NCBI GenBank assembly: GCA_003565135.1
Contig: PXDC01000476.1
Location: 1-32,522, forward strand
From: Verrucomicrobiota bacterium
GTDB lineage: Bacteria > Verrucomicrobiota > Verrucomicrobiia > Opitutales > T3Sed10-336
Length of the DNA: 32,522 nt
Direction: 5' to 3'
Under the pieces are notes generated by a model. That model saw only the letters and a program-made list of their open reading frames with translations, made no database searches and had not been told where the DNA came from. Shown here one piece after another: positions 2,582 through 30,132 of the stretch. The position numbers and the translations under genes are program-made. Within the stretch, counting starts at the first letter, position 1; the number at the start of each line of letters is the position of its first letter.

Positions 2582-2662
2582 ATGCCGCAATTTTGGCGGT
2601 TCCGGGATTGTTTCCTTGATTCCGCAAGGTGCCTCCGATTAGCTATGAGACCTTTTACCCGT

Positions 2663-3544
2663 ATGAAGTACCACTTTGTTTTTTCTCTAACCGTCCTGGC
2701 ATTCGCGACTTCGCTGGTCGCGGAAGAGCAGCCCGCGCTGCGCATCGGGGGCAGCGATTTGTTTGACGAAGCCTTCCGGGAAGCCATCGAGCGTTTCGCC
2801 GAAACCGAGGATTTGGCGGTGGACGTCCGGCTGGAGGGGAGTTACGCGGCTCGCACCGCGCTTGCCGAAGGGGGACTGGACCTGGCGATCCTGGCGGTTC
2901 CGGCCGGCGGCGAGGAGCACCTGGAAGGGTACGAATCGTATGGTTTTGCCTACCAGACGGTCGTTTTTGCGATTCATCCGGAAAACACCGCCAACGAACT
3001 CACACTCGGTCAGGTGTCGGGGATTTTCGGCGCCGAGGAGCTGGTGTCGTACGGCCGCTGGGGTGAACTGGGGGCGGGCGGCGAATTGCGTCCCCGGGCG
3101 ATCGCGACGTACTCGATCGCACAGGGACAGAGCATCGCGGTCGATTTGTTCACCCATGAAGTACTCAGGAATCCCCGGCTTCGGGGCGGGGTCGCCTACC
3201 TGAATTCGGTCGACGAATTGTTGGCCATGGTGGATGAAAGCACGGCGGCAATCGCCCTCCTTCCGCGCACCCCGCCGCCGGGCAGCCCGGTTCAGACGGT
3301 GGCATTGGCCCGCGACGACGGGGATATCGCTTTTGGGCCGAGCGCGGAGAACGTTCACAACGGGGACTACCCGATCCGGTTGCCGGTTTACCTCGTTTTC
3401 CCCGCGGATGCCGGCGATCGCGTCCGGGAGCTGTTGCTTTTCCTGACCGGGGATGAGGTGGCTGAAATCGTCCGGGAAAGCGGCCTCATGCCCTTGCCCG
3501 GCAGTGCGCGGAACCGGCTCAGGTTCGATTTCGAACAGCTTTAA
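2663..3544 (+). CDS. PstS-like periplasmic substrate-binding protein
   Basis: From the ATG at 2663 this is a 293-residue protein with a clear signal peptide (MKYHFVFSLTVLAFATSLVAEE). The mature part begins LRIGGSDLFDEAFREAIERF and resembles the type 2 periplasmic-binding fold of the PstS/PBP-like family, with the segments EGGLDLAILAVPAG and AYQTVVFAIHPENT at expected places. Such proteins bind phosphate or other small oxyanions, but some have sensory roles. No pstCAB transport genes follow. The position directly behind an NtrC-type regulator leaves open a sensory or accessory role; this is inference. An alternative in-frame start at 2645 would add six residues before the signal peptide. Confidence 0.75.
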   Translation: MKYHFVFSLTVLAFATSLVAEEQPALRIGGSDLFDEAFREAIERFAETEDLAVDVRLEGSYAARTALAEGGLDLAILAVPAGGEEHLEGYESYGFAYQTVVFAIHPENTANELTLGQVSGIFGAEELVSYGRWGELGAGGELRPRAIATYSIAQGQSIAVDLFTHEVLRNPRLRGGVAYLNSVDELLAMVDESTAAIALLPRTPPPGSPVQTVALARDDGDIAFGPSAENVHNGDYPIRLPVYLVFPADAGDRVRELLLFLTGDEVAEIVRESGLMPLPGSARNRLRFDFEQL

Positions 3545-9218: not shown

Positions 9219-9743
9219 TCACTCGACCGTCATGATGCCGACCATTCCCGCCGGAGTGTGGCCGGGGAAGCTGCAGATGTAGTCGTAGTCTCCCGTTTCG
9301 TCCGGAGCGATGAACGTGATCGTGTCACTTTCACCCGGCCCGAGCAACCGGGTTGCCGCGATTACCTCGTCTTCCCGTTCCGGCGGGATGTACTCGTTGC
9401 GCACATGCCGCTGCGCCGCGTTGGCGAAGTCCATCTTGTCCACACCCATTTGCAGCACCACCAGGTTGTGCCCCATGGATTCCTTGGGCATTGTGCCCAC
9501 GTTGTTGAAGACGATCGTGACGTGCTGACCGGCCTCGACGGTGAATTCCGTAACGTCGAAACGCATATTGTCGTCACCGCCGATCTCGATGGTGAAGCCG
9601 TTCTCCGGAGGCGGCGTTTCGGTGACGGTGTCGGGAGCGGGCGAGGGCGCCGTCTCGGTCACTTCCCCGTTCGGCGCGCACGCGGCGATCATTGCCGCCA
9701 CAGCGATGGTGGCCAGGCATTTCGTGTAGGTCGATATATTCAT
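9219..9743 (-). CDS. Azurin/plastocyanin-like cupredoxin lipoprotein
   Basis: This 174-residue protein begins with a lipoprotein signal (IAVAAMIAAC, lipid-modified C22), a Pro/Thr-rich linker, then a cupredoxin domain from about residue 48. The type 1 copper ligands fit azurin: H92 in MGHNLVVL, C157 in YICSFPGH, H162 and M167 in AGMVGIM. Azurins shuttle electrons in the periplasm. Its position in the same apparent operon as a copper-handling SCO protein, and divergent from nosZ, suggests it supplies electrons to NosZ or to another respiratory copper enzyme; that link is inference. The SCO gene lies 34 bases upstream on the same strand. Confidence 0.88.
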   Translation of the reverse strand: MNISTYTKCLATIAVAAMIAACAPNGEVTETAPSPAPDTVTETPPPENGFTIEIGGDDNMRFDVTEFTVEAGQHVTIVFNNVGTMPKESMGHNLVVLQMGVDKMDFANAAQRHVRNEYIPPEREDEVIAATRLLGPGESDTITFIAPDETGDYDYICSFPGHTPAGMVGIMTVE

Positions 9744-13833: not shown

Positions 13834-15168
13834 ATGAGATTCACCCGGAGCACCTGGCTTATTCTCACGGGGATCGCCCTGGCGGTTTTTCCACCGGTCA
13901 ACCTGGCGGCCGAGACGCTTTCCCTGCAGGAACGCATTGATCGTGCCGCCCCGGGGGATGAGATCAGGGTCGACGGCGGCGTGCATCACGGGGAGCTGGT
14001 TGTCGATCGCCCGGTTATCCTGACCGGTATCAACCGTCCGCACCTGAAGGGTGGCCGCGAAGGTCACACCGTCGCAATCCGGGCCGAAAACGTAACTCTG
14101 CGCGGTTTCCGAATCTCGGGCTCGGGACTCAATCTCTCCCGCGACCACGCCGCGGTTCATATCAGTGCCGCCGGTGCCCGGATTCTCGAAAACGAGATCG
14201 CCGATTCGCTGCACGGTGTTTATGTGCGCGGAGTTGATGGAGTCCGGATCGAGGGGAACCGCATACGCGGGATCGAAGAAACCGAGGCCGAAAACATCGG
14301 CGCCGTGGTTACCGGAACCGTAGGGGCGGGCGATATGTGCTCGGTCTCCCGCGACCGTCGGGGTAACGGGATTCATTTCTGGAAGTCCAGCGGAAATACG
14401 GTACGGGGCAACGAAGTTTCCGGCGTGCGCGACGGCATTTATTTCTCCTTTACACGGCAGAGCCGGGTGGAGAACAACCTTGTGTATGACGCGCGTTACG
14501 GGCTTCACTACATGTATTCGGATAATAATTACCTTTCCGGCAATACCTTTACGAATAATTCGGCCGGGGCCGCGCTTATGTTTTCCAAAGAGGTGGTTTT
14601 GCGGGAAAACAATTTTGTCGAGAACCGCGGTCCGCGGGCGTACGGCCTGCTCCTGCACAACGTCGACCGGTCGACCCTCGAAAACAACCGCATGAAACAC
14701 AACCGGATCGGTTATTACATGCAGAACAGCCACGCCAATACCGCCCGTCGGAATGATTTTGTCCGCAATTACATCGGACTTCGACTCACATCGAGCTCCA
14801 CGGGCAACCTTTTTGCCCACAACCAGGTCGGGCATAACCTGCACAATATCGATTTGGCCGGCCGCGACAATCGCAATGACTGGCAGGAGAATGGAAAGGG
14901 AAACCGCTGGCTCGATTCGCCCACCCTCGACCTCGACCGGGATGGCGTAAGCGAACTTCCGCATCGCGAGGTCGACCTGTTCGGCCCGTCCCGGGACGAT
15001 TTTCCCTTTATTGCATTTCTCTCGGAAAGTCCCGGCATGAAGGTTCTGCGCTTCGCGCTGCAGCGGGCGCCGGTTCCCGGCATTCACTTTATCACGGATA
15101 CCCGTCCCCTCGCGCCGTCGCGGCGCGGCCCCGATCCCTCCGAGATCGAAGCCGGCAGCGCCCGATGA
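13834..15168 (+). CDS. nosD: NosD, periplasmic copper-site maturation protein
   Basis: The ATG at 13834 has a strong GGAGGA Shine-Dalgarno site four bases upstream and opens a signal peptide (LILTGIALAVFPPVNLAAE), giving 444 residues. The mature protein is a right-handed parallel beta-helix of CASH repeats, with recurring N-rich turns such as GNRIRG, GNEVSG, ENNLVYD and SGNTFTNN. YGLHYMYSDNNYLSG and ALMFSKEVVLRENNFVENRGPRAYGLLL are typical of NosD. NosD acts in the periplasm with the NosFY ABC transporter in assembling the CuZ centre of NosZ, probably in sulfur or copper supply. Its stop overlaps the nosF start (ATGA), indicating translational coupling. Confidence 0.95.
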   Translation: MRFTRSTWLILTGIALAVFPPVNLAAETLSLQERIDRAAPGDEIRVDGGVHHGELVVDRPVILTGINRPHLKGGREGHTVAIRAENVTLRGFRISGSGLNLSRDHAAVHISAAGARILENEIADSLHGVYVRGVDGVRIEGNRIRGIEETEAENIGAVVTGTVGAGDMCSVSRDRRGNGIHFWKSSGNTVRGNEVSGVRDGIYFSFTRQSRVENNLVYDARYGLHYMYSDNNYLSGNTFTNNSAGAALMFSKEVVLRENNFVENRGPRAYGLLLHNVDRSTLENNRMKHNRIGYYMQNSHANTARRNDFVRNYIGLRLTSSSTGNLFAHNQVGHNLHNIDLAGRDNRNDWQENGKGNRWLDSPTLDLDRDGVSELPHREVDLFGPSRDDFPFIAFLSESPGMKVLRFALQRAPVPGIHFITDTRPLAPSRRGPDPSEIEAGSAR

Positions 15169-15842
15169 TCGAGATCCGCAAGCTGAACAAGACCTACGGT
15201 GAGACCGTCGTCCTTCGCGGGGCTGACCTCGTGGTGGAGGATGGGAGGATCACCTTCCTGGTGGGGGACAACGGGGCGGGGAAATCGACCACGCTCAAGA
15301 TCCTGGCCGGCCTGGTCCGGCCCACCTCCGTGGAACGCCTGGAGATAAACGGGATAGACGCCCGGCGCAGGCGTAAAGCCCAGGTCTCCACAGCCTATCT
15401 CCCGCAGGGAGCCTCGTTCCACCACGCCATGACCCCCGCGCAGACCCTTGATTTTTACGGCCGCCTCCGCGGCGTTTCCCGTCGCCGGATCCGAGGGCTT
15501 ACGGAGACGTTCGCGCTCGAAGCCTTCGCCGGCCAACCGGTAGGGGAGCTTTCCGGCGGTATGGTCCAGCGGCTCGCGTTGGCCGTAATGTTCCTGCCCG
15601 ACGCTCCCGTTCTCCTGGCCGACGAACCTGTGGCCAGCCTCGATCCCGATTGGCGGGATCGCCTTCAGGAGCTTCTTCGGGAGGAAGCGGCGAGAGGAAA
15701 GACGGTCCTGGTCGCGACGCACTTCCTGGATGAGTGGCGCACGACCGGGGATCGCGTTGTGGTTTGTCGCGACGGTGTTATCCGGCCGCATCCTTTGTCC
15801 CGGGACGAGGGGGACGACCGGGGGAAAGTAGGCTCGTCATGA
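15165..15842 (+). CDS. nosF: NosF, ABC transporter ATPase for NosZ maturation
   Basis: This 225-residue cytoplasmic ATPase has the full ABC set. Walker A is GDNGAGKST (34-42), the Q-loop is AYLPQG near residue 80, the signature is LSGGMVQRL from residue 129, Walker B is VLLADEP (150-155) and the switch His is in ATHFLDEW. It is shorter than many NosF proteins (about 300 residues) because the C-terminal extension is nearly absent. With NosY it drives the transporter that works with NosD on the CuZ centre. It overlaps nosD and nosY by four bases at each end. Confidence 0.93.
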   Translation: MIEIRKLNKTYGETVVLRGADLVVEDGRITFLVGDNGAGKSTTLKILAGLVRPTSVERLEINGIDARRRRKAQVSTAYLPQGASFHHAMTPAQTLDFYGRLRGVSRRRIRGLTETFALEAFAGQPVGELSGGMVQRLALAVMFLPDAPVLLADEPVASLDPDWRDRLQELLREEAARGKTVLVATHFLDEWRTTGDRVVVCRDGVIRPHPLSRDEGDDRGKVGSS

Positions 15843-17228: not shown

Positions 17229-17371
17229 TCATGTCACGTTTGGATGCGGCGAGTCAACGCCTTAATTTTCCCGGGTCGTCTGATTTGACTCGGTGCCGGA
17301 ACAACGTCTGAATGTAATAGCTTTTTTTCTAAATGGCGACCTGCGCCATGATTGACCTCGCACCATTCCGA

Positions 17372-18682
17372 ATGAACACGTTCTCCCCTCTTTTTCTGTT
17401 TTCGTTTGCATTCCTGCTGCCCCCGGTGGCCTTCGCCCTGTCGGGCGATACCCGGACGGTTCCCATCGGCGAGGGATGGGCGCGGAATTCGGTGAACGCG
17501 GTGATCTTCCGCACCCATGCCGTGACATCCTACCGGGATCGGCAATACGCGGCTTATTATGACGCCGAAGGCCAGGTCGTTCTCGCCCGGCGGAAGCTGG
17601 GATCGGACCAATGGGAGATTCACAACACAGGGTACCAGGGAAACGTGCGGGACGCACACAATGCCATTTGTATCGCTGTCGACGGCGAGGGATACCTGCA
17701 TCTCTCCTGGGACCACCACGGGCATCCGTTGACGTACAGGCGGAGTCTGGAACCGGAATCGTTTGAATTTTCCGAACCCCTCTCCATGACCGGGGAGTTC
17801 GAGAACCGGGTGACCTACCCCGAGTTTTTCAATCTGGACGACGGCGGGTTCGTGTTCATGTATCGGGACGGGGGTTCGGGAAACGGGCGGATTCTCCTGA
17901 ACCGGTACGATACCGCGACGCAGGAATGGAGCCCGCGGCAACATCCGCTGATCGACGGCGAGGGTGAGCGAAACGCCTATACCAACCAGATCGCCATCGA
18001 CGGCGAGGGTCGCTGGCACCTGTCGTGGACCTGGCGTGAGACCTCGAATGTCGCCACCAACCACGACATCGGTTACGCCGTCTCGCCGGATGAGGGACGG
18101 ACCTGGTACCGTTCGGACGGCCGGCCGTACGATCTGCCCATAACCCGGGACGAGACCGAAGTGGTGCGGGAGATTCCCCAGAACAGTGAGCTCATAAACC
18201 AGTGTTCCATGGCGGTCGATTCCCGCGGACATCCCATGATCGCGACCTACTGGCGGCCGGAAGGGGAGGAGGTGCCGCAGTTTCACCTTGTCTGGTACGA
18301 CGGAGAGACGTGGCACACCAGCCGAGTGACCGAGCGCACGACCCCTTTTCGCCTGGCGGGCGGCGGAACCCGGCGCATTCCGATCTCCCGTCCGAAACTG
18401 GCGGTGGATGACGATGACCGGGTATTCATGCTTTACCGCGACGATGAACGGGGCGGACGGATTTCGGTGGCGATAAGTGAACGTCCCGGCCGCGATGATT
18501 GGGTGCACCGTGATCTCAGCGCCGAATCGGTGGGGTTGTGGGAGCCCAACTACGACGTTTCAATCTGGGAACGGAAGCGGGAGTTGCACATATTCAAGCA
18601 ATTTGTCGGCCAGGGGCAGCGGGAAACCCTGGAGGACGTGCCACCCCAGACGGTTTCGATCCTGGAGTGGAAACCCGAATAG
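17372..18682 (+). CDS. Secreted BNR_4 family protein (BNR repeat-containing, lyase-like beta-propeller)
   Basis: The ATG at 17372 opens a signal peptide (FLFSFAFLLPPVAFALSG) and gives 436 residues; an in-frame ATG at 17333 lies farther upstream. The mature part is a propeller-like fold of the BNR_4 family, with DAHNAICIAVDGEGYLHLSW and HHGHPLTYRRS, VTYPEFFNLDDGGFVFMYRD, AIDGEGRWHLSWTWR and NQCSMAVDSRGHPMIATYW. Members include polysaccharide lyases of the ulvan lyase (PL24/PL25) type and many uncharacterised secreted proteins. The DHHGHPLTYRRS segment is where catalytic histidines occur in lyase relatives. Activity and substrate are inferred from the neighbouring lyase-like, sulfatase and sugar-transport genes. 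Confidence 0.85.
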   Translation: MNTFSPLFLFSFAFLLPPVAFALSGDTRTVPIGEGWARNSVNAVIFRTHAVTSYRDRQYAAYYDAEGQVVLARRKLGSDQWEIHNTGYQGNVRDAHNAICIAVDGEGYLHLSWDHHGHPLTYRRSLEPESFEFSEPLSMTGEFENRVTYPEFFNLDDGGFVFMYRDGGSGNGRILLNRYDTATQEWSPRQHPLIDGEGERNAYTNQIAIDGEGRWHLSWTWRETSNVATNHDIGYAVSPDEGRTWYRSDGRPYDLPITRDETEVVREIPQNSELINQCSMAVDSRGHPMIATYWRPEGEEVPQFHLVWYDGETWHTSRVTERTTPFRLAGGGTRRIPISRPKLAVDDDDRVFMLYRDDERGGRISVAISERPGRDDWVHRDLSAESVGLWEPNYDVSIWERKRELHIFKQFVGQGQRETLEDVPPQTVSILEWKPE

Positions 18683-18754: not shown

Positions 18755-20629
18755 TCATTTTTCGACCGGTATGACAATGCCGCGCATGATGATGTTCTGG
18801 GCGAAGATAAAGATGATGATCGTCGGAATCGACGCGATTAGGACCGAGGCGAAGATCCCTCCCATGGAGGCGGTTTCCTGGAACTGGTAGAGCCAGACGC
18901 TCAATAACCACATCTCCTGACTGGGCGCCACCAGCAGTGCGTAAAGGAACAGGGTGTAGGCACTGTTAAAAGCCTGGAGAGCCACCACGGCGAGGATCGG
19001 CTTGCTCAAGGCCATGGTGATCTGAAAGAAGATCCGGATTTCCGAAGCGCCATCGATGGTGGCCGCTTCGTAAAGCTCCGTGGGAAGGGAGTCGAAGAAT
19101 CCCTTCAACAGGAATATGAGGTACCCGTTGGCCACGGTCGGAAGAACCAGCGCCGCGAACGTATTCATCATGTTCAGGTTCTGCAGGATGATAAAGGTCG
19201 GAATGAGGGTGACCATGGGTGGAAAAGCCATGGTGGCCATCAACAGCAGAAGGATCTTGTAGGAACCGGGGAGTTTGAAACGGGAGAGGGAATACGCCGC
19301 CAGCGGATTGACCAGCAGGGCGAGGCTGACGGAAAGCGTGCAGAAAATAACCGTGTTGAGGAAGGCCCGTCCGCGCAGAAAAAGGGCGTCCGCCACGTTG
19401 ATGAAATTGCGGACCGAATACGTCCAGCGCAGGGAACCGGTATGGGCCAGGACGTGATCGAGCTCGAGTTCCGCCATGGGCGGAAAGACATCCTGGTAGT
19501 CGGTGTAATCAGTGCCGTACCTCTCGTTCAGGTTCTCGATATTTCCGTACGTGTCCTCCAGCCATTCGCGGAAGGCGAACTCGGGACCGTAGAGGCGGTA
19601 GGCATCCGGGTCGAGCTCGACAAAAAAGTCGTGATAATCGGCCCGCCGGCTTCCGCTGAGCCACTCGCCGGCGGGAAGGGAGATCTCCGCAAAATCGGTT
19701 TTATCCGCGGCCCAGGCGGTATTCAGTTCGTCAATCGTCCCGTAAAGATCCTTCAGGTAGTCACGGTAATCCCCGTCGTCCACGTCGACCAGGAGCACGA
19801 AGCTCGGGTTGATCTCATCCCGGACGAACTCGAGCCATTCGGTTCGGAATTCCGGCTGGCTCCCGGGCGGTGCGCGGGCCGGCAGGCGAAAGTCGGCATA
19901 GGAATCGATGTGGAGGCCTTCGTGGGCTTCGTTGAAAGCGTGGGTGTCGCTCTGGCCGTAAACGGGATAAACCATCGTTTCGAGGAAGAACCCGGTTAGG
20001 GACACGACGGAACGTTCCGCCAGGGGAGCCTCCTCCAGCATCCGGAAATACTCCTGGAACAAGGGGTCGTCCGGAACATCGAACCGGAACGAGAGCCAGT
20101 CGGTCGGCGGAATAACCAGGTTGATCCAGTTGTTGATGACACCCCCCGTGGCCCGGTTATAGGCACTGAGGTCGCCGTCGAAGCGATCCGCGATCCGGTT
20201 TCGCAGCTCCCGCAGGGCTTCGGGGGTGGTTCGGTCGCCGCGGATCCCACCCAGCAGTTGCCAATGACGGGGCAGGGAATTTTCCTCGTAATAGGCGTGG
20301 AAGTCGTCCACGCGTTCCCGGTTGATCCCTTCCGGCACGGCGGCGTTTTCGAACGAGAAATTCTGCTGCAGGTGTGCCTGGTTCAACTCGTTAACCCGCT
20401 GGTTGTACTTGGTCTCGAGGAATTTCCGGTAAAGGACTTCATCCTCGAACAGGAAGCTGGGGATCAGGTCGAGGTCCGTTTCGTCCATTTCGCTCCGAAG
20501 GGATCCGGAAACCATGATGGCGAAAGGATAGATCATGGTTACCGCGCCCAGGGTCAGGATCGCGAATATGGCGGCGATGGTCAGTTTTCCCTGGACGGTT
20601 CGGGCCTGGACTTGGGAGATGATCGGCAT
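18755..20629 (-). CDS. Carbohydrate ABC transporter permease (MalG type) with large repeat-bearing extracytoplasmic insertion
   Basis: The protein has 624 residues, about twice the usual 280 for MalG-type permeases. Helix 1 (residues about 17-42) is followed by a ~370-residue hydrophilic insertion, and the remaining permease helices start near residue 420. The ABC-contacting EAA loop is intact (ELYEAATIDGASEI, residues 518-531). The insertion contains repeated units: 66-99, 287-319 and 352-384 share the pattern aromatic-x2-(F/Y/W)L-x3-Y-x5-LN, with a weaker copy at 140-176. The pattern recalls the 'YGTIDELNTAW' helical motif of GH42 beta-galactosidases. It is probably an extracytoplasmic glycan-facing domain. 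The upstream fused binding protein-permease gene is on the same strand, 77 bases away. No ATPase gene is adjacent. Confidence 0.9.
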   Translation of the reverse strand: MPIISQVQARTVQGKLTIAAIFAILTLGAVTMIYPFAIMVSGSLRSEMDETDLDLIPSFLFEDEVLYRKFLETKYNQRVNELNQAHLQQNFSFENAAVPEGINRERVDDFHAYYEENSLPRHWQLLGGIRGDRTTPEALRELRNRIADRFDGDLSAYNRATGGVINNWINLVIPPTDWLSFRFDVPDDPLFQEYFRMLEEAPLAERSVVSLTGFFLETMVYPVYGQSDTHAFNEAHEGLHIDSYADFRLPARAPPGSQPEFRTEWLEFVRDEINPSFVLLVDVDDGDYRDYLKDLYGTIDELNTAWAADKTDFAEISLPAGEWLSGSRRADYHDFFVELDPDAYRLYGPEFAFREWLEDTYGNIENLNERYGTDYTDYQDVFPPMAELELDHVLAHTGSLRWTYSVRNFINVADALFLRGRAFLNTVIFCTLSVSLALLVNPLAAYSLSRFKLPGSYKILLLLMATMAFPPMVTLIPTFIILQNLNMMNTFAALVLPTVANGYLIFLLKGFFDSLPTELYEAATIDGASEIRIFFQITMALSKPILAVVALQAFNSAYTLFLYALLVAPSQEMWLLSVWLYQFQETASMGGIFASVLIASIPTIIIFIFAQNIIMRGIVIPVEK

Positions 20630-20706: not shown

Positions 20707-23481
20707 CTAGCCACCGGCGCGGAATTCGGCGTTGGAAAGAAGTTTCAACTGATAGGCGGTAAAGGCGATAAGCAGGGCGCCCATCATCCAGGCCATGGCG
20801 GTGCCTTCGCCGAAGTTCAGCTCGACGAAGGTGCGGAAGAAAATCTCCAGCGAAAGAATGGTGGTGGCTTCGCCCGGTCCGCCCCCGGTCATGATGAGAA
20901 TGAACTCCTCGCCACCGCGGAAAGCGACAATGACCGCCCAGACAAACTGGATTACGATCAGGTATTTCAATCGCGGCAGGATAATGTAAAACACTTTGTG
21001 CCAGTTGCCCGCGCCGTCGATTTCGGCCGCCTCATAAAGGTCGTTGGGAACGCTCTTCAGGGCCGCCAGGTAAAGGATGCAGCCGGGGCCCATGCTTGCC
21101 CAGATCATCGGAACCACCACGCAGAGCATGGCGATATCCGGAGACTGCGTCCACCGGAGCGGCTCCAGGTCGAAAGTGCCGACGACGTTTCCCAGAAGGG
21201 CGAATGCGGCCCCCAGGTTTTCGTTGCGCGCGACGTCGAACAATGGGCTCAGGGTCAGTCCCAGGAAGGCGAGTCCTACCACCCAAAGGGTAATCTTCAA
21301 CCCCCGCGGCATCTCTCCCAGCCGGATAGGCAGGGCGAACAGCAGGTAGATGATCGAGCCCCAGATGCCGAGTGCCCCGAGCTTGAGCAACGTTGCTCCG
21401 CCGGGGCCGAGATTGTTGAGACTGAGCAGCAGTTGGTTGAGCACCCCCTGTTCGCTCGGATCGTAGAGCTGCCGCCACAGGAACATAACCACCACCCCGA
21501 TGAGTACGGCCGGGAGGTAATAGATGGTACGAAAGATATATTTGGCCGTATTGGTGGGAACTTCCTGCAAAAGGATTGCCAGGGCGATCGGGGGCCAGAA
21601 ACCGAGGCAGATGGAAAGGGTGACGAAGTAAAAAGTGCGCAGCAGCGCCCGCCAGAACTGTTCGTCGAAAAGCGTGTTGGCGAAGTTATCCACACCCACC
21701 CATAAACTGTCCTGAACCACGCGGTAATCCATGAACGAAATGCTGGCTCCTCCCATGATAAGGGGGAAGTACTGCCAGGTCAGAACCAGCCCGATTCCGG
21801 GAATCAACAGGAGGTATCCCCAGGCGTACCGGCGCCAGTTCTGCTGTCCGGTCACCGGTGCGCTGACCCTGGAAAAATAGCGCCAGACATGAGCCATTCC
21901 CAGGCTGAAGACGATGGCGATGATCAGGATGACGCCGGCGCCGATCCAGCGACGTTGCTGCATCTGTTCGGGGGGGATCAGGCCGAGAACCTTCAAATTG
22001 AACTCCTCTACCGTCTCCTCCAGGTATCCCTGGATGACGCTGATGGCTTCGTCGTCGGTCATGCCGGCGAAATCGTCTTCCAGCGCACGGTTTATGGGAC
22101 GGGACATCCACCGGTAGATGTTCATGGTTTCGGCCCCGTAGGGTTCCGGAACGCCGTTTTCCATGGCCGTCTGAAAGGCTTCGCGCCATCCCGGCGGAAC
22201 CCGTCGCAAGACGCGTTCATACCCGAACCGCTCCAGGTACTCGGGATTGACGAACATGCCGTAACCGTTCTCCACGAAAATTCGCGTCCGCAGGCGGTGG
22301 GCCTCATCGCTGGTGATGTACCAGAGGTAACGCATCACCGCCAGCTTCTGTTCCGGTTTGGAACCGCTGAAAATGCCCATCATACGGGCGTTAACCTCGC
22401 TGCCCCGTAAACCTTCGGGCGTCACCGGCACCGGGGCGATTCCGACCTGCTGCGGATTGATGGCCGCCAGCATCTGCTCGTCCAGGTAGCTGAACTGCAT
22501 GCCGACGTTCCCGCGCTCCCATTCGAGGTCGCGAGGGCCGGTGGTCAGCCCGGCGGCACCGTTGATGACCCGGCCGTCATCCCGTGTAAAGGGCTCCCGA
22601 ATGAGGCGCCAGAAAAAATAGATCCCTTCCGCCGCCTCCCGGCTGTCGAAAGCCGCCCGCCAGTTGCCGTCTTCGTCCTGTTCCTGAGCGCGGGCGCCTT
22701 TCGAGACCATGAACGAGTAGGCCTGGTAGCTGGTGCCGTGTCCGGCTCCGAAGAGCATCCCGTACTGCCTCCGCTCGGGCACACGGAGGATGCGGGCGAA
22801 CTCGATCATCTCATCCCAGTTTTGGGGCGGCCTCTCGGGATTCAATCCGGCTTCACTGAACACATCCTTGCGGTAAAGCAGGGCTTGCACGAGGTTGCTC
22901 GTGGGGATGGCCCAGACATGCTTCTCATCGCTTCGTCCGCTGAGGTCTTCGCGGTAGACAACCGGCCAACTCGGTTCCGGCACCCGTTCGCGGATCAACT
23001 CCAGGGCTTCTTCGATTTCCCCGGGGGTCGGGTCGGCCAGCCAATTGTCCCGTTCGTCGGTCCGTCGTACTCGTTCGTCGTCGCTGCGGATGCGGGCCAG
23101 CATGACCTCGAGGGGTTCGAGGAAGCCCTGCTCGATGTAGGTGGAGGACTGGCGGAAATTTACGTAGATCGCGTGGGGTGGGATCCCGGCCGAGATAGCC
23201 ATGAGCGGACCGACGTCCATCTCGGAGGTTCCGCCGACAATCGGCATGGTGAACGGTTCGATGTCGTATTGAGGGTACTGATCGTAGAACGAACGCAGGA
23301 CCTCCCTCTGGGTGATGGCGACAATGTCCGTGTTGGTCGGGTTGGGCAGCCCATCCGCCCGAAAAGTAACGGTTCTTCCCTCGTCCCCCCGAAGGGAGGT
23401 CGTCGGGCCGGGAATCGACGTCAGCAGAGCCGAAAGCAGAATGAGAAAGGCAGTCAGTTGTATTCCGGCCCGGGTCGGCAT
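20707..23481 (-). CDS. Fusion of extracellular solute-binding protein and ABC permease (MalE-MalF type)
   Basis: One 924-residue chain holds two normally separate subunits of a sugar importer. A signal anchor (residues 8-22) is followed by a family 1 type solute-binding domain (about 35-505), with ALLYRKDVFSEAGLNPERPP, NWDEMIEFARIL and a C-terminal lobe ending near EFNLKVLGLIPPEQ. A helix at 512-534 then leads into a MalF-type permease (about 550-920) with an EAA loop LYEAAEIDGAGNWHKVFYII (815-834) and EEFILIMTGGGPGEATTIL. Two additional helices appear between 700 and 748. The second permease follows in the same operon. The ATPase must come from elsewhere in the genome. The tether would fix one binding protein to each transporter. 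Confidence 0.93.
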   Translation of the reverse strand: MPTRAGIQLTAFLILLSALLTSIPGPTTSLRGDEGRTVTFRADGLPNPTNTDIVAITQREVLRSFYDQYPQYDIEPFTMPIVGGTSEMDVGPLMAISAGIPPHAIYVNFRQSSTYIEQGFLEPLEVMLARIRSDDERVRRTDERDNWLADPTPGEIEEALELIRERVPEPSWPVVYREDLSGRSDEKHVWAIPTSNLVQALLYRKDVFSEAGLNPERPPQNWDEMIEFARILRVPERRQYGMLFGAGHGTSYQAYSFMVSKGARAQEQDEDGNWRAAFDSREAAEGIYFFWRLIREPFTRDDGRVINGAAGLTTGPRDLEWERGNVGMQFSYLDEQMLAAINPQQVGIAPVPVTPEGLRGSEVNARMMGIFSGSKPEQKLAVMRYLWYITSDEAHRLRTRIFVENGYGMFVNPEYLERFGYERVLRRVPPGWREAFQTAMENGVPEPYGAETMNIYRWMSRPINRALEDDFAGMTDDEAISVIQGYLEETVEEFNLKVLGLIPPEQMQQRRWIGAGVILIIAIVFSLGMAHVWRYFSRVSAPVTGQQNWRRYAWGYLLLIPGIGLVLTWQYFPLIMGGASISFMDYRVVQDSLWVGVDNFANTLFDEQFWRALLRTFYFVTLSICLGFWPPIALAILLQEVPTNTAKYIFRTIYYLPAVLIGVVVMFLWRQLYDPSEQGVLNQLLLSLNNLGPGGATLLKLGALGIWGSIIYLLFALPIRLGEMPRGLKITLWVVGLAFLGLTLSPLFDVARNENLGAAFALLGNVVGTFDLEPLRWTQSPDIAMLCVVVPMIWASMGPGCILYLAALKSVPNDLYEAAEIDGAGNWHKVFYIILPRLKYLIVIQFVWAVIVAFRGGEEFILIMTGGGPGEATTILSLEIFFRTFVELNFGEGTAMAWMMGALLIAFTAYQLKLLSNAEFRAGG

Positions 23482-25590: not shown

Positions 25591-28548
25591 CTAAAGTCTT
25601 TCCACGCGGAGACGCATGAAGCGCTTCGACGTGCCGGCAACCGGCGTATTATCGCGGACCGTGACACGCTCGGTTTCCCCGAGTGTGGAAACCTCCTCTT
25701 CGGTGTATTCATCTCCTGAATACCAATCCGAAAGGTTTTCGGAGACTTCGACAACAAAACGGATGTCCGGCGTGGGGATGGGGCGTTCGTAAGTCAGCGA
25801 AAGCCGCCCCTCGGAAATTTCCGCAACCGGAAGGTCGCCCGGTTGGGCCGGTTGCCACGGGTCGAGGTCGAGGGCGTACTTGACGAGATTCGGTATCCCG
25901 TCACCGGCCGGGGACGCCAGGTCGGCTCCGGTTTCAGGATCGTTGCGTTCCTCCTCCGAGAAGTTTTCCGCCCACCAGGTGTCGATGGGGCGCGCCGCGA
26001 TCGCCAGGACGGCCGTGCTTTCGCGACCGGCGCTGTAGGCGGTTCCGTGCCTGAGGCGGAGGCTGACTTCGGTGGCCTCCGGGATAAACGCCCCGTCCAC
26101 CAGGCGGACCGGCAGGCTGGCGGATGCGCGGTTTACCGATATGCCGACTGTTTCCGGCATGGCTTCCACGTCGATAAGGTCGGCGCCGGGCCCGGTCACC
26201 TCGTACTCGACCCAAATGCGCCCGTCGCGGATGCCCCGACGCTCGAGAGCCCACGTGAACGAGTCGTCTTCCGACGGGACCAGAACTCCGTTCGTTTCCC
26301 CGAAGCTGACGATCGATATCAGTCCGCCCGAACCGCGATCCGGGTCGAGTCGGTCTTCGAGTTGTTTCAGGTAGAGGCTCTGCGGGTTTACGTGTTCGCC
26401 CTGGGATATCCAATAACCGTCTTCGGCGTAGTCCGGAAACGATCCCGCCCATTTGGTGCCTTTCACCCCTATGGCCCAGTTCTGGGCCGTGGGCGGATTC
26501 TGGTTGGCAATGCGGTTGGCCGAGGAGTTCCAGATGACGTGATTCGCGCCCGCCCATCCGTGCCCGGAGCCGAAATTGAGGCGGTTCTGCACGTTGATAT
26601 CCCGGTGCGGAATCTCAATGTTATCGTACAGGGCGCCCGTTGCCCAACGGTGGTGCGGGCCGGTATCGGAATAGGAGTGCTCGCCGCGACTCTGGAGAAA
26701 TACATTGGGGCCATGGGTGCGGCTGCTGGTGCCGTAATCGTGCCGCGCGTAGCGGGCGTAGCAGCGTTGGACCAGGCAAAGCTGCCCTCCCTGTACGTAG
26801 AAAGGGTAACGCCGGCTTCCGCTGATCGTGGAGATCGGGTCAAGCAGCGCGCTGTCCTCCACGGTGATCCACTTCGATCGTCGCTCCATCAGGACCGTTC
26901 CGAATCCGAAATGGACACCGGTCAACTCCCGTGCCCAGGCGTTCTGTACCCGGTCGAATACGACGAATGTCCAGGCGTGATCCTCGTCGTCCGGGGAACC
27001 GTCGTAAGCCGAAACCGACCGGATGTTTTCGATGCCGACCTGCGAGATCCGTTCCGGAAAGGTGTAGGTGTAGATCCACCCGCCGCCGTACTGATCTTCC
27101 AGGGCGTTCATGACCGGCGCATCGATGGTGATTTCGTTGCCGTCGATGGCCGTGATGACCCGGTCGTACTGGATATCGTACTGCCCGGCCTGCCACTGGG
27201 TGATCGGCAGGCCGTCCGATCGTTCCGGGATCTCGTCCATCCCGATGGCCGAAATCCATTCCTCGGTGCTGGGACGGTAGACGATGATGGTGTCACCGAC
27301 CTCGAGGCCGCTCGCGTCGTCGACGCGGAAGCTGCGTGCCCCGACCGGAACATAGGCGTCGGTGATGATCCGGTTGCCGGAAGTGCGATTCCAGGTTCCG
27401 GCAGTGGCGCCGACCTCGATCAGGGTGCGACGGATGGTTCCGGTGGCGTGGATTACGGTTCCATCCTCCCCGCGTCCTTCGCCCCGCAGAACGATGCCGC
27501 TGGAGGAAATGCGCAGCGATCCCTCGACTTCGTACGCGCCCCGTTTCAGGAGTACCGCTCCGCGAAATCCGTCCTGGTCCTCGGGAATGACGGCCACGGT
27601 GTCGATGGCCGCCTGGATCCGTTCGGTGTCGTCTCCGGCTTCAGGTTCGAGGGTGACCATGACCGGGACGTCCTCCGGGATGGGTACCCCGCCCCCCATG
27701 TACCCGGCGCTGGAGAAGTCCGGAATGCGGTTGCCGGCGTGATCTTTCGTGTACGCGAGACGGCCGTCCTCGCCGGGCACCGCGTTAGGGGGCTCTTCCT
27801 CTTCGTATTCCGGCTCGGTCACGGTTACCTCGTCGATGTCGAAGGTGACCACCGATTCGCTGTCCGGGTTGACATTGAAGGAATGAATGGGACCGACCCC
27901 GGAGGAGGAGCGGGCAAAGACGTAACTGGAGATAACCGATTCGCCGTTTATCCAGACCGAGGCCGTGCCGGGCGACAGAGACCGCTCCGTGCCGTCGGGC
28001 GCCGGGTAAACGATCCGGGTGCCGGCGTTGTTGACAAAAACTTCGAAATGCCGGACTTCGTCGTTGGAGCCGTAGTAAGCCTCCGGGTTGACGCCGCGAA
28101 TGGTGGCGGCGCTGGGCCGGAGGGAGAGAACGTGAGCCCGGTGGTTTCCGTCGCCGGCGTAAAAGTTGATGTTCAGCCAGCGGTGGTCGTTTTCCGTGGA
28201 TCGTCCCACAAAGTCGAAACTGAGCCGAACCACCTCGCTGGGCGAGTCGAGACGGGCGTAAACATTGAAATTTCCCGCGTCGATCCCCCGCAGGAAGCGG
28301 TTCCCGGTGCCGGCACCGAATAATTCGTCCGGATCGTCCGCGATTTTCAGCTCTCCGTGACCGGTCGAAACCGAATGCCATGGTCCGCCCTGGCCCTGTG
28401 TTTGCGGTAATCCGTCCAGCGGCGCGCCGTTGAAGTCGTCGTGGAAAAGAACCGTTTCGGCCGCCAGGACCGGGGACAGAATCAACGAGACGATGGCCGG
28501 CAACCAGTTCCTGTGGAAGCTCTTGGGAACGAATAGGCGAGGATCCAT
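25591..28548 (-). CDS. Large secreted right-handed beta-helix protein (pectate lyase-like)
   Basis: The protein has 985 residues with a signal peptide (WLPAIVSLILSPVLAAE). Residues about 32-245 form a beta-sandwich-like N-terminal domain (FHDDFNGAPLDGLPQT onward). A short acidic Pro linker (EYEEEEPPNAVPGE) leads into the catalytic-like part: DDTERIQAAIDTV, GAVLLKRGAYEV and GIVLRGEGRGEDGT are typical of Pectate_lyase_3-like beta-helices. The later stretch YDNIEIPHRDINVQNRLNFG, GHGWAGANHVIWNSSAN and PPTAQNWAIG resembles DUF4955-type proteins. The C-terminus contains GDGIPNLVKYALDLDP and a beta-rich end (SKRFMRLRVERL), which I associate with secreted verrucomicrobial proteins. It probably acts on an extracellular polysaccharide. 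It is divergent from the sulfatase gene. Confidence 0.85.
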   Translation of the reverse strand: MDPRLFVPKSFHRNWLPAIVSLILSPVLAAETVLFHDDFNGAPLDGLPQTQGQGGPWHSVSTGHGELKIADDPDELFGAGTGNRFLRGIDAGNFNVYARLDSPSEVVRLSFDFVGRSTENDHRWLNINFYAGDGNHRAHVLSLRPSAATIRGVNPEAYYGSNDEVRHFEVFVNNAGTRIVYPAPDGTERSLSPGTASVWINGESVISSYVFARSSSGVGPIHSFNVNPDSESVVTFDIDEVTVTEPEYEEEEPPNAVPGEDGRLAYTKDHAGNRIPDFSSAGYMGGGVPIPEDVPVMVTLEPEAGDDTERIQAAIDTVAVIPEDQDGFRGAVLLKRGAYEVEGSLRISSSGIVLRGEGRGEDGTVIHATGTIRRTLIEVGATAGTWNRTSGNRIITDAYVPVGARSFRVDDASGLEVGDTIIVYRPSTEEWISAIGMDEIPERSDGLPITQWQAGQYDIQYDRVITAIDGNEITIDAPVMNALEDQYGGGWIYTYTFPERISQVGIENIRSVSAYDGSPDDEDHAWTFVVFDRVQNAWARELTGVHFGFGTVLMERRSKWITVEDSALLDPISTISGSRRYPFYVQGGQLCLVQRCYARYARHDYGTSSRTHGPNVFLQSRGEHSYSDTGPHHRWATGALYDNIEIPHRDINVQNRLNFGSGHGWAGANHVIWNSSANRIANQNPPTAQNWAIGVKGTKWAGSFPDYAEDGYWISQGEHVNPQSLYLKQLEDRLDPDRGSGGLISIVSFGETNGVLVPSEDDSFTWALERRGIRDGRIWVEYEVTGPGADLIDVEAMPETVGISVNRASASLPVRLVDGAFIPEATEVSLRLRHGTAYSAGRESTAVLAIAARPIDTWWAENFSEEERNDPETGADLASPAGDGIPNLVKYALDLDPWQPAQPGDLPVAEISEGRLSLTYERPIPTPDIRFVVEVSENLSDWYSGDEYTEEEVSTLGETERVTVRDNTPVAGTSKRFMRLRVERL

Positions 28549-28659
28549 GGGTTTAGCTTATCACAAAACAGAGACGAAATTCCGATAGAATTCGGTTTGG
28601 GGTCACCTTTTTTCTGTTTCGGGATGCTTCGTGCTTGTGAATCCGGTGCGCCCGGACTT

Positions 28660-30132
28660 ATGCAAGCTCCTGTGAAGAACCGCCCGCCGCACGTCATCAT
28701 ACTCATGGCCGATCAACTGCGCGCCGATTTTATCGGCGAACACACTCCGAATATTTGCGCCCTGATGAACGAGGGCACTTCGTTTTCACGGGCGTATTGC
28801 GCGTCACCTCTCTGTGTGCCGGCCCGCGGAGCTTTTTTTACCGGCTGTTATCCGAACCGAAACGGTTCCCTCATCAATCCCTGGCGTGAGGCCGATCGAT
28901 CGCATGGCTACGTCCGCCCCGAGGTGCCGACGCTTTATTCGCTCATGGAGGACAAGTGGGACAGCTGGCACGCGGGAAAGCAGCACCTTTTTCAGGAGGG
29001 GAAACTGGATGAGGATCCGGACAGTAAAACCCGCTGGCTCGGGAGGCGCAGGATGCAGGATTACGGCGATTTCGTGCGTGCCGCGGGGGTGCGCCCACCG
29101 GGGGGAGCGAGGTACCGTGGGCTGGTTCCGGAAATGGTGGGCGGCCGCGCGACCCATCCTCGATGGTACAGTATCCCGGCGACGGGACGTTACGAACACG
29201 ACTATAGGTATTTTTTCGATGGATACATAAATTCCCGCGGAGTGGAGGCCATTGACGGGCGCGACCCGGCTCGGCCGTTTCTGCTCAACCTGATGTATCT
29301 CGCCCCGCACCCGCCGCTGGAAATCCCGGAGCCATGGTACTCCCGCGTAAAGTCCGTCGAACTGGCGGACAACGTGGCTCGGTGGGACACGGGACAGTCG
29401 CCCCTGCAGTTGTACAACCTGCCGGGTTTCATCGGTTCCGGATACAGTCGCGACGACTGGTGGGAAATCTGGCGGGTATACGCCGGGCTGGTCAGCCTCC
29501 TGGACGATGCCATTGGCGAGATCCTGGGGAAACTCAAGGCGGAAGGGCTCTACGACGATGCCCTGATCGTTTTTACGGCCGACCACGGTGAAATGCTGGG
29601 GTCGCACTGTGCCTGGCAGAAAATGTGCATGTACCAGGAGTCAACCCGGGTTCCCCTCAGCATCAAGTTGCCCGCGGGAGCCCGGCAGGTTTCCGCTTCG
29701 GACGAACTCGTCAGCCATGTCGACGTTCTGCCCACGCTTTGCGATTTCCTCGGTATGGAACCGCCGGCAAATCTTTCCGGCGTTTCCCTGCGGTCGGTGG
29801 TGGAGGACGGAACCCCGCTGGAACGGGAGGCGGTTTTTATCCAGGCGGACGGTAACGGGGCCCGGGGGAATTTCCAGCGCTGTGTGGTGCGGGGCGATCA
29901 CAAACTTATTGTCGACCTGTTCAAGGACGAGGTGTTCTTCGAACTGTACAACGTGGTCGACGACCCGGAGGAGCAATTCAACCTCGCGTGGGAGGAAGGC
30001 GATCGGGTGGCCGTTCTGCTCGAGCTTCTGACCGCGGAAATGCGGGCCGGCCATGATTTGATCGAAATTCCGGCGGACGCCTACGCCCGCTTCCGGGATG
30101 ATTACGCCGAGTTGCGGCCTAGCCGAACGTAA
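28660..30132 (+). CDS. Sulfatase (family S1, arylsulfatase/choline-sulfatase type)
   Basis: The protein has about 490 residues from the ATG at 28660; an ATG at 28624 is an alternative. It opens PPHVIILMADQLRADFIG, with the metal-binding Asp in ADQ as in choline-sulfatase-like members. The active-site motif is C52-V-P-A-R56 in SPLCVPARGAFFTG, where C52 would become formylglycine. Other conserved parts are LNLMYLAPHPPLEIP, FTADHGEMLGSH and a C-terminal ELYNVVDDPEEQFNLA. It hydrolyses sulfate esters, here probably on sulfated glycans or their fragments. No signal peptide is visible from either start, so it may work in the cytoplasm on imported oligosaccharides. Its 3' end overlaps the convergent gene by 14 bases. 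Confidence 0.92.
   Translation: MQAPVKNRPPHVIILMADQLRADFIGEHTPNICALMNEGTSFSRAYCASPLCVPARGAFFTGCYPNRNGSLINPWREADRSHGYVRPEVPTLYSLMEDKWDSWHAGKQHLFQEGKLDEDPDSKTRWLGRRRMQDYGDFVRAAGVRPPGGARYRGLVPEMVGGRATHPRWYSIPATGRYEHDYRYFFDGYINSRGVEAIDGRDPARPFLLNLMYLAPHPPLEIPEPWYSRVKSVELADNVARWDTGQSPLQLYNLPGFIGSGYSRDDWWEIWRVYAGLVSLLDDAIGEILGKLKAEGLYDDALIVFTADHGEMLGSHCAWQKMCMYQESTRVPLSIKLPAGARQVSASDELVSHVDVLPTLCDFLGMEPPANLSGVSLRSVVEDGTPLEREAVFIQADGNGARGNFQRCVVRGDHKLIVDLFKDEVFFELYNVVDDPEEQFNLAWEEGDRVAVLLELLTAEMRAGHDLIEIPADAYARFRDDYAELRPSRT

Follow-up and report, generated by a model that had tools for sequence, protein, structure and literature searches.

A solute-binding domain fused to a MalF-type permease, and its enlarged MalG-type partner, in Verrucomicrobiota and Planctomycetota

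In a 32,522-nucleotide stretch of DNA from a Verrucomicrobiota bacterium (the whole of which is hereafter called the window), we found that a solute-binding domain and an ABC permease are encoded in one 924-residue chain (P0001), and that the adjacent gene, likewise on the minus strand, encodes a MalG-type permease with an enlarged first periplasmic loop (P0002). An earlier note on this DNA had described the fusion; that reading was right but incomplete, because the fusion belongs to a two-gene module conserved in two phyla, and the repeat-containing insert of the partner had gone unmentioned. The P0001–P0002 design is genuine and recurs widely as a variant of a well-known type of importer. 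We consider it probable, with good confidence, that the two proteins form a type I carbohydrate importer resembling MalFGK2, in which the binding protein is built permanently into the MalF-type subunit. The features of the module and of two nearby genes are listed in Table 1.

Table 1. Location of the fused gene, its partner and two neighbouring genes in the window
Feature	Window position	Strand	Basis
Fused solute-binding protein/MalF-UgpA-type permease, P0001, 924 aa	20707–23481	-	Pfam, model, Foldseek, profiles
N-terminal hydrophobic signal sequence, P0001 residues 5–23	23413–23469	-	Hydropathy; helix 3–21 in model
Solute-binding domain, P0001 residues ~35–497, predicted MalE/UgpB-like two-lobed fold	21991–23379	-	SBP_bac_1, model, Foldseek, profile matches
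Membrane anchor helix, P0001 residues 504–539	21865–21972	-	Hydropathy, model, alignment
MalF/UgpA-type permease, P0001 residues 546–917	20731–21846	-	BPD_transp_1; UgpA/GlcT/MalF models; AlgM1/SugA/MalF matches
Extra transmembrane hairpin between core permease helices, P0001 residues 693–753	21223–21405	-	Hydropathy, model, alignment
EAA loop (ATPase contact), P0001 residues 815–834	20980–21039	-	Translation, family alignment
Partner MalG/UgpE-type permease, enlarged first periplasmic loop, P0002, 624 aa	18755–20629	-	Pfam, NCBIfam, model
Inserted periplasmic domain, P0002 residues ~58–402	19424–20458	-	Model, repeat HMM/profile matches, Glyco_hydro_42 fragment
GH145-like/Rha-alpha-1,4-GlcA-lyase-like beta-propeller enzyme	17333–18682	+	Pfam, NCBIfam, PDB matches; context only
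Sulfatase	28597–30132	+	Context only

The P0001 frame is open for 924 codons on the minus strand (positions 23481–20707) and contains no internal stop; on the plus strand, stops are present over the same positions. Pfam searches placed both SBP_bac_1 (residues 181–394, E = 3.6e-16) and BPD_transp_1 (residues 736–908, E = 1.2e-9) in this frame, each above its curated cut-off. Hydropathy analysis identified an N-terminal stretch (residues 5–23), an anchor (512–530) and a first permease helix (557–575), and, together with the flanking charges, was consistent with a periplasmic binding domain, an inward anchor and a cytoplasmic start of the permease. The AlphaFold2 model, for which an alignment of 52 rows served as input (mean pLDDT 87.7, pTM 0.81), predicts a helix at residues 3–21, a two-lobed alpha/beta domain at 38–497 (pLDDT >90 in most blocks), and then a single long helix at 504–539 followed by the permease helices; in this model, ~6 residues link the final helix of the binding domain to the anchor. 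The family 1 type binding domain and the membrane helix, which the earlier note had located at residues ~35–505 and 512–534, were accordingly both recovered, as was its claim of a chain free of frameshifts and internal stops.

We compared the predicted binding domain with known structures using Foldseek, and the top PDB matches were sugar-binding proteins, namely MalE3 (E = 3.1e-15) and the trehalose/maltose-binding protein TMBP (E = 1.8e-14). A profile of the P0001 family matched known structures of both classes, binding proteins and permeases, including AlgM1 (E = 4e-32), the solute-binding protein 5ci5 (E = 9e-31), SugA and MalF. The UgpA and MalF models of NCBIfam also matched P0001, all below their equivalog cut-offs, and P0001 is hence not an orthologue of these proteins. 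Weak PDB matches (E = 0.003–0.006) to an ADP-ribosylating toxin domain inside the binding domain were taken as chance.

Among 52 aligned members of the family, SBP_bac_1 was detected in all 52 and BPD_transp_1 in 46, and every member retains the anchor helix. The EAA loop, LYEAAEIDGAGNWHKVFYIILP, is conserved throughout these 52 proteins, in agreement with the intact loop that the earlier note had reported at residues 815–834 of a MalF-type permease. The extra hairpin is found in most members and is absent from about one quarter, for example from G018/L035 (838 aa). In the binding domain, the motif VNFRxSxTY (residues 107–116, window about 23163–23134) is kept by most of the 52 fused proteins despite an overall family identity down to 30–40%, and may point to a ligand group common to the family or to a surface used in docking.

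To survey the distribution of the fusion, we searched samples of 388 genomes of Verrucomicrobiota and 392 genomes of Planctomycetota with the P0001-family profile, counting a fusion at E ≤ 1e-60. The fusion was detected in 108 of the Verrucomicrobiota genomes (75 of 199 genera) and in 19 of the Planctomycetota genomes. Nearly all matches lay within open frames of ~750–1100 aa, and a few were split or at contig ends; named records with related fusions were Opitutia, Phycisphaerae and Planctomycetota MAGs. The scores of ordinary permeases from these genomes were much lower, reaching at most about 156 bits. In a plasmid collection, 2191 records matched, but none covered 80% of the query in one place and no fusion was found; among the annotated matches listed, the hits were ordinary separate genes.

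P0002 (20629–18755) begins 77 bases past the stop codon of the fusion. Its permease core matches the structures of MalG, AlgM2 and SugB, and its EAA loop is ELYEAATIDGAS; as for P0001, NCBIfam models (here UgpE/MalG) matched only below the equivalog cut-offs, and P0002 is hence not an orthologue of these proteins. An enlarged MalG was present in 104 of the 108 fusion-bearing genomes, as against 131 among all 388 genomes (Fisher p = 7e-63, a value inflated by the non-independence of related genomes). Of 58 placed pairs, 53 were adjacent and on the same strand, with a spacing of 9–509 bases. Because the genes beyond the pair varied among the compared loci, we regard the P0001–P0002 pair as the unit. 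At the same threshold, 27 genomes (including G105, G113, G127, G130 and G228) contained an enlarged MalG and no fusion match, and the MalF partner in these genomes may be more divergent or unfused.

A MalK-type ATPase gene was not found in the window by Pfam or by a search with a MalK query. The only ABC_tran gene there (15165–15842, plus strand) was rejected as the ATPase; it matches the MalK query poorly (31% over 217 aa) and therefore probably belongs to another system. In relatives, a MalK/UgpC-type gene lies directly after the MalG gene (G315, G432 and G154) or immediately upstream of the fused gene and in the same orientation (G760). Eight further genomes were examined, and all eight encoded a UgpC-type ATPase above the NCBI cut-off away from the pair; in the genome of P0001 itself, whose assembly is 82% complete, there was no confident UgpC, and a lower-scoring ATPase was present at 298 bits. 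Shared ATPases such as MsmX are known (PMC7658222). As for MsmX-served importers, which likewise have no ATPase gene nearby and an ATPase encoded elsewhere, the putative MalK/UgpC-type ATPase of the fused system is in most cases encoded elsewhere and is probably shared with other importers. The genome of P0001 contains, in addition, a conventional pair of sugar-type permeases (L037; 317 and 309 aa), so the fused system exists alongside a standard one.

The sequence shows the fusion, its topology, the family assignments, the pairing of the genes and their conservation, and the models predict the folds and the repeats; together, these features suggest the following mechanism. The N-terminus would be exported, placing the binding domain in the periplasm, where ~6 residues would hold it to the anchor helix, and the anchor would take the chain back to the cytoplasm ahead of a standard permease fold. 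P0001 and P0002 would form a heterodimeric channel, and the EAA loops of both subunits would recruit a MalK/UgpC-type ATPase dimer. The tethered domain would then capture a glycan fragment, close and dock on the channel, and ATP-driven movement would open it. Since the binding domain is carried by just one of the two permeases, each complex should have one such domain.

Alternatively, the binding domain could be a sensor or regulatory lid that delivers nothing, with free binding proteins feeding the channel. The strong conservation of the NFR-S motif near residues 108–112, in an otherwise divergent family, could mark a docking or signalling surface in place of a substrate site. However, the domain is predicted to have a complete two-lobed fold close to that of sugar-binding proteins, and a transport role agrees with the EAA loop and with the MalG- and MalK-type genes that accompany the fusion. 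Moreover, no sugar-type solute-binding protein gene was found beside the pair among the Pfam-scanned genes of the window, in which the sole other binding-protein gene is a distant PBP_like_2 gene at 2582–3544. We therefore consider a sensor or lid unlikely, and delivery of substrate by the tethered domain remains our preferred reading.

It is slightly less likely still that processing or internal initiation of the chain additionally yields a free binding protein, a free permease or both. An in-frame TTG at codon 496 of P0001 (window 21996–21994) is preceded at a fitting distance by AGGAG; this codon sits just ahead of the anchor helix, and initiation there would yield a free permease. However, this is one case, the AGGAG derives from two GAG glutamate codons, and the combination is probably due to chance. 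In addition, the anchor occurs in all aligned members, which argues against separation of the two parts.

We next consider the insert of P0002. In the model of this protein (mean pLDDT 85.1, pTM 0.80), the first helix spans residues 12–43 and the second 422–451, and the loop between them (P1) is predicted to consist of helical repeats, mostly with pLDDT >90. The ~350-aa insert is thus modelled as five tandem repeats of ~55–75 aa each (58–128, 132–208, 209–280, 283–346 and 347–402). These segments match one another (unit 4 versus unit 5, E = 3e-12; profile-profile probabilities of 90–99% for all pairs), whereas shuffled controls never fell below E = 0.01. The E. coli binding protein MalE makes contact with two periplasmic loops, P2 of MalF and P1 of MalG (Daus et al. 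2007, as cited in PMC3150292). Because the insert sits in P1, the loop through which MalG contacts MalE, the simplest reading is that it most likely serves as a surface or cradle on which the tethered binding domain docks, taking the role played in E. coli by MalF-P2 and MalG-P1.

A Pfam match to Glyco_hydro_42 (E = 4.7e-12), shared by 31 of 36 members of the P0002 family, raises the possibility that the insert is instead a catalytic GH42-like glycoside hydrolase trimming substrate at the channel. The match, however, is a 36-residue fragment (residues 352–387, profile positions 153–193 of 376) that corresponds to one repeat. The model of the insert shows five copies of a helical unit and not the TIM barrel of a GH42 beta-galactosidase, and no hydrolase was included in the top 50 Foldseek matches. 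We accordingly regard a hydrolase as very improbable.

We also asked whether the fusion reflects a sequence under constraint. Within the same genus, genome G002 contains a full-length copy of P0001 that is 87% identical and of the same length, without any indel over 924 codons; its contig is identical to contig L004 of an Opitutia MAG. Between the two copies, dN was 0.09 and dS 1.28 over the whole chain, and 0.117 and 1.093 over the junction codons 480–570 (dN/dS ~0.1); only the signal sequence was unconstrained. The fusion junction of P0001 is thus under purifying selection. In a quick permease tree, the fused permeases formed one group, separated from ordinary permeases by a branch with an SH-aLRT value of 100, and a single origin of the fused permeases is likely, although the ordinary rows of this tree are few and long-branched. 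Within the fused group, the two rows labelled 'free' (L009 and L120) were split copies of the fusion. That two ordinary genes were merged by an assembly or sequencing error is scarcely credible: although the source is a draft assembly of MAG quality in 538 contigs, and a relative (L009) broken by a deletion around the anchor indicates that such errors or events happen, this explanation is refuted by the independent recurrences of the fusion, in two phyla, and is further contradicted by the indel-free copy in a second genome, the selection on the junction and the branch that sets the fused permeases apart.

Individual relatives are disrupted. In L009, a Planctomycetota MAG, ~60 codons around the anchor and the first permease helix are gone (9554–9560), leaving the binding and permease parts in different frames, through either a deletion or an assembly fault. 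In G004, one of two copies (L034, near 10590) has a TAA stop within the EAA loop, which is a sequencing error or a recent pseudogene.

We further compared the module with known importers. It shares with E. coli MalEFGK2 and other CUT1 systems (UgpBAEC, AlgM1M2 and LpqY-SugABC) the permease folds, a putative heterodimeric channel of distinct MalF-like and MalG-like permeases with an EAA loop each, an SBP_bac_1-type, MalE/UgpB-like binding domain and, probably, a MalK/UgpC-type ATPase, a gene for which lies beside the pair in four relatives. It differs in that the binding protein is fused to the MalF-type subunit, the P1 loop of the MalG-type subunit is bigger by ~350 aa of repeats, and the MalF-type subunit of most members has an extra membrane hairpin. 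With tethered-domain importers it has in common a single chain with an outside binding domain, as indicated by the continuous frame, the signal sequence and the anchor helix. In OpuA, the glycine betaine importer of Lactococcus lactis, the binding domain is joined to the permease through an 11-residue linker and a hydrophobic anchor (PMC11065425), a similar arrangement; however, OpuA is a member of a different importer family, with two binding domains per complex, whereas the present system is of the sugar type and would have one. In GlnPQ, a glutamine importer of Gram-positive bacteria, binding domains and permease also share one chain (PMC8025302), but this amino-acid family protein is a homodimer with two tandem domains per subunit, four per complex, and a flexible 19-residue linker, compared with one domain and ~6 linker residues in the P0001 model. 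Assignment of P0001 to an OpuA- or polar-amino-acid-family homodimer was rejected, as its closest matches are of the sugar type and its partner is a different permease. By this comparison, the system would work like tethered-domain importers and is built from sugar-importer parts. The fixed 1:1 ratio and local capture proposed in the earlier note would follow from this architecture and from the parallel with OpuA and GlnPQ, and are offered as a suggestion; the note's further idea, that tethering might suit large glycan fragments, is speculative.

Importers of amino acids and osmolytes, such as OpuA and GlnPQ, provide well-studied examples of fused binding domains. In the literature searched, mostly outside subscription journals and preprints, we found none described for the MalFGK2-like family or for these phyla. 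It is possible, although on balance doubtful, that the module represents a distinct subclass of sugar importers, in which one tightly tethered domain works against the five-repeat cradle of the opposite subunit, and which arose once and spread over Verrucomicrobiota and Planctomycetota for the uptake of glycan fragments. If this is the case, the surfaces for capture, docking and the channel would all be built permanently into a single complex. Its very short linker and its single binding domain per complex would make the system a natural test of the effect of tethering on transport. Many hard-to-culture bacteria carry the module, and naming it would fix annotations that read merely 'solute-binding protein' or 'permease'.

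At least some of these bacteria have glycan-degrading genes close by. In the window, the module is flanked by the GH145-like gene and the sulfatase. The product of the former, a relative of alpha-L-rhamnosidases, matched 5muk (E = 5e-141) and the Rha-GlcA lyase 7esk (E = 9e-35) in the PDB, and a large open reading frame at 25591–28548 gave a weak lyase match. Judged from these annotations, the GH145-like gene and the sulfatase suggest a glycan-degradation region, which makes a glycan context for the importer plausible and points to rhamnose- and uronic-acid-containing glycans as the putative substrate. Most relatives, by comparison, carry the module without these enzyme neighbours.
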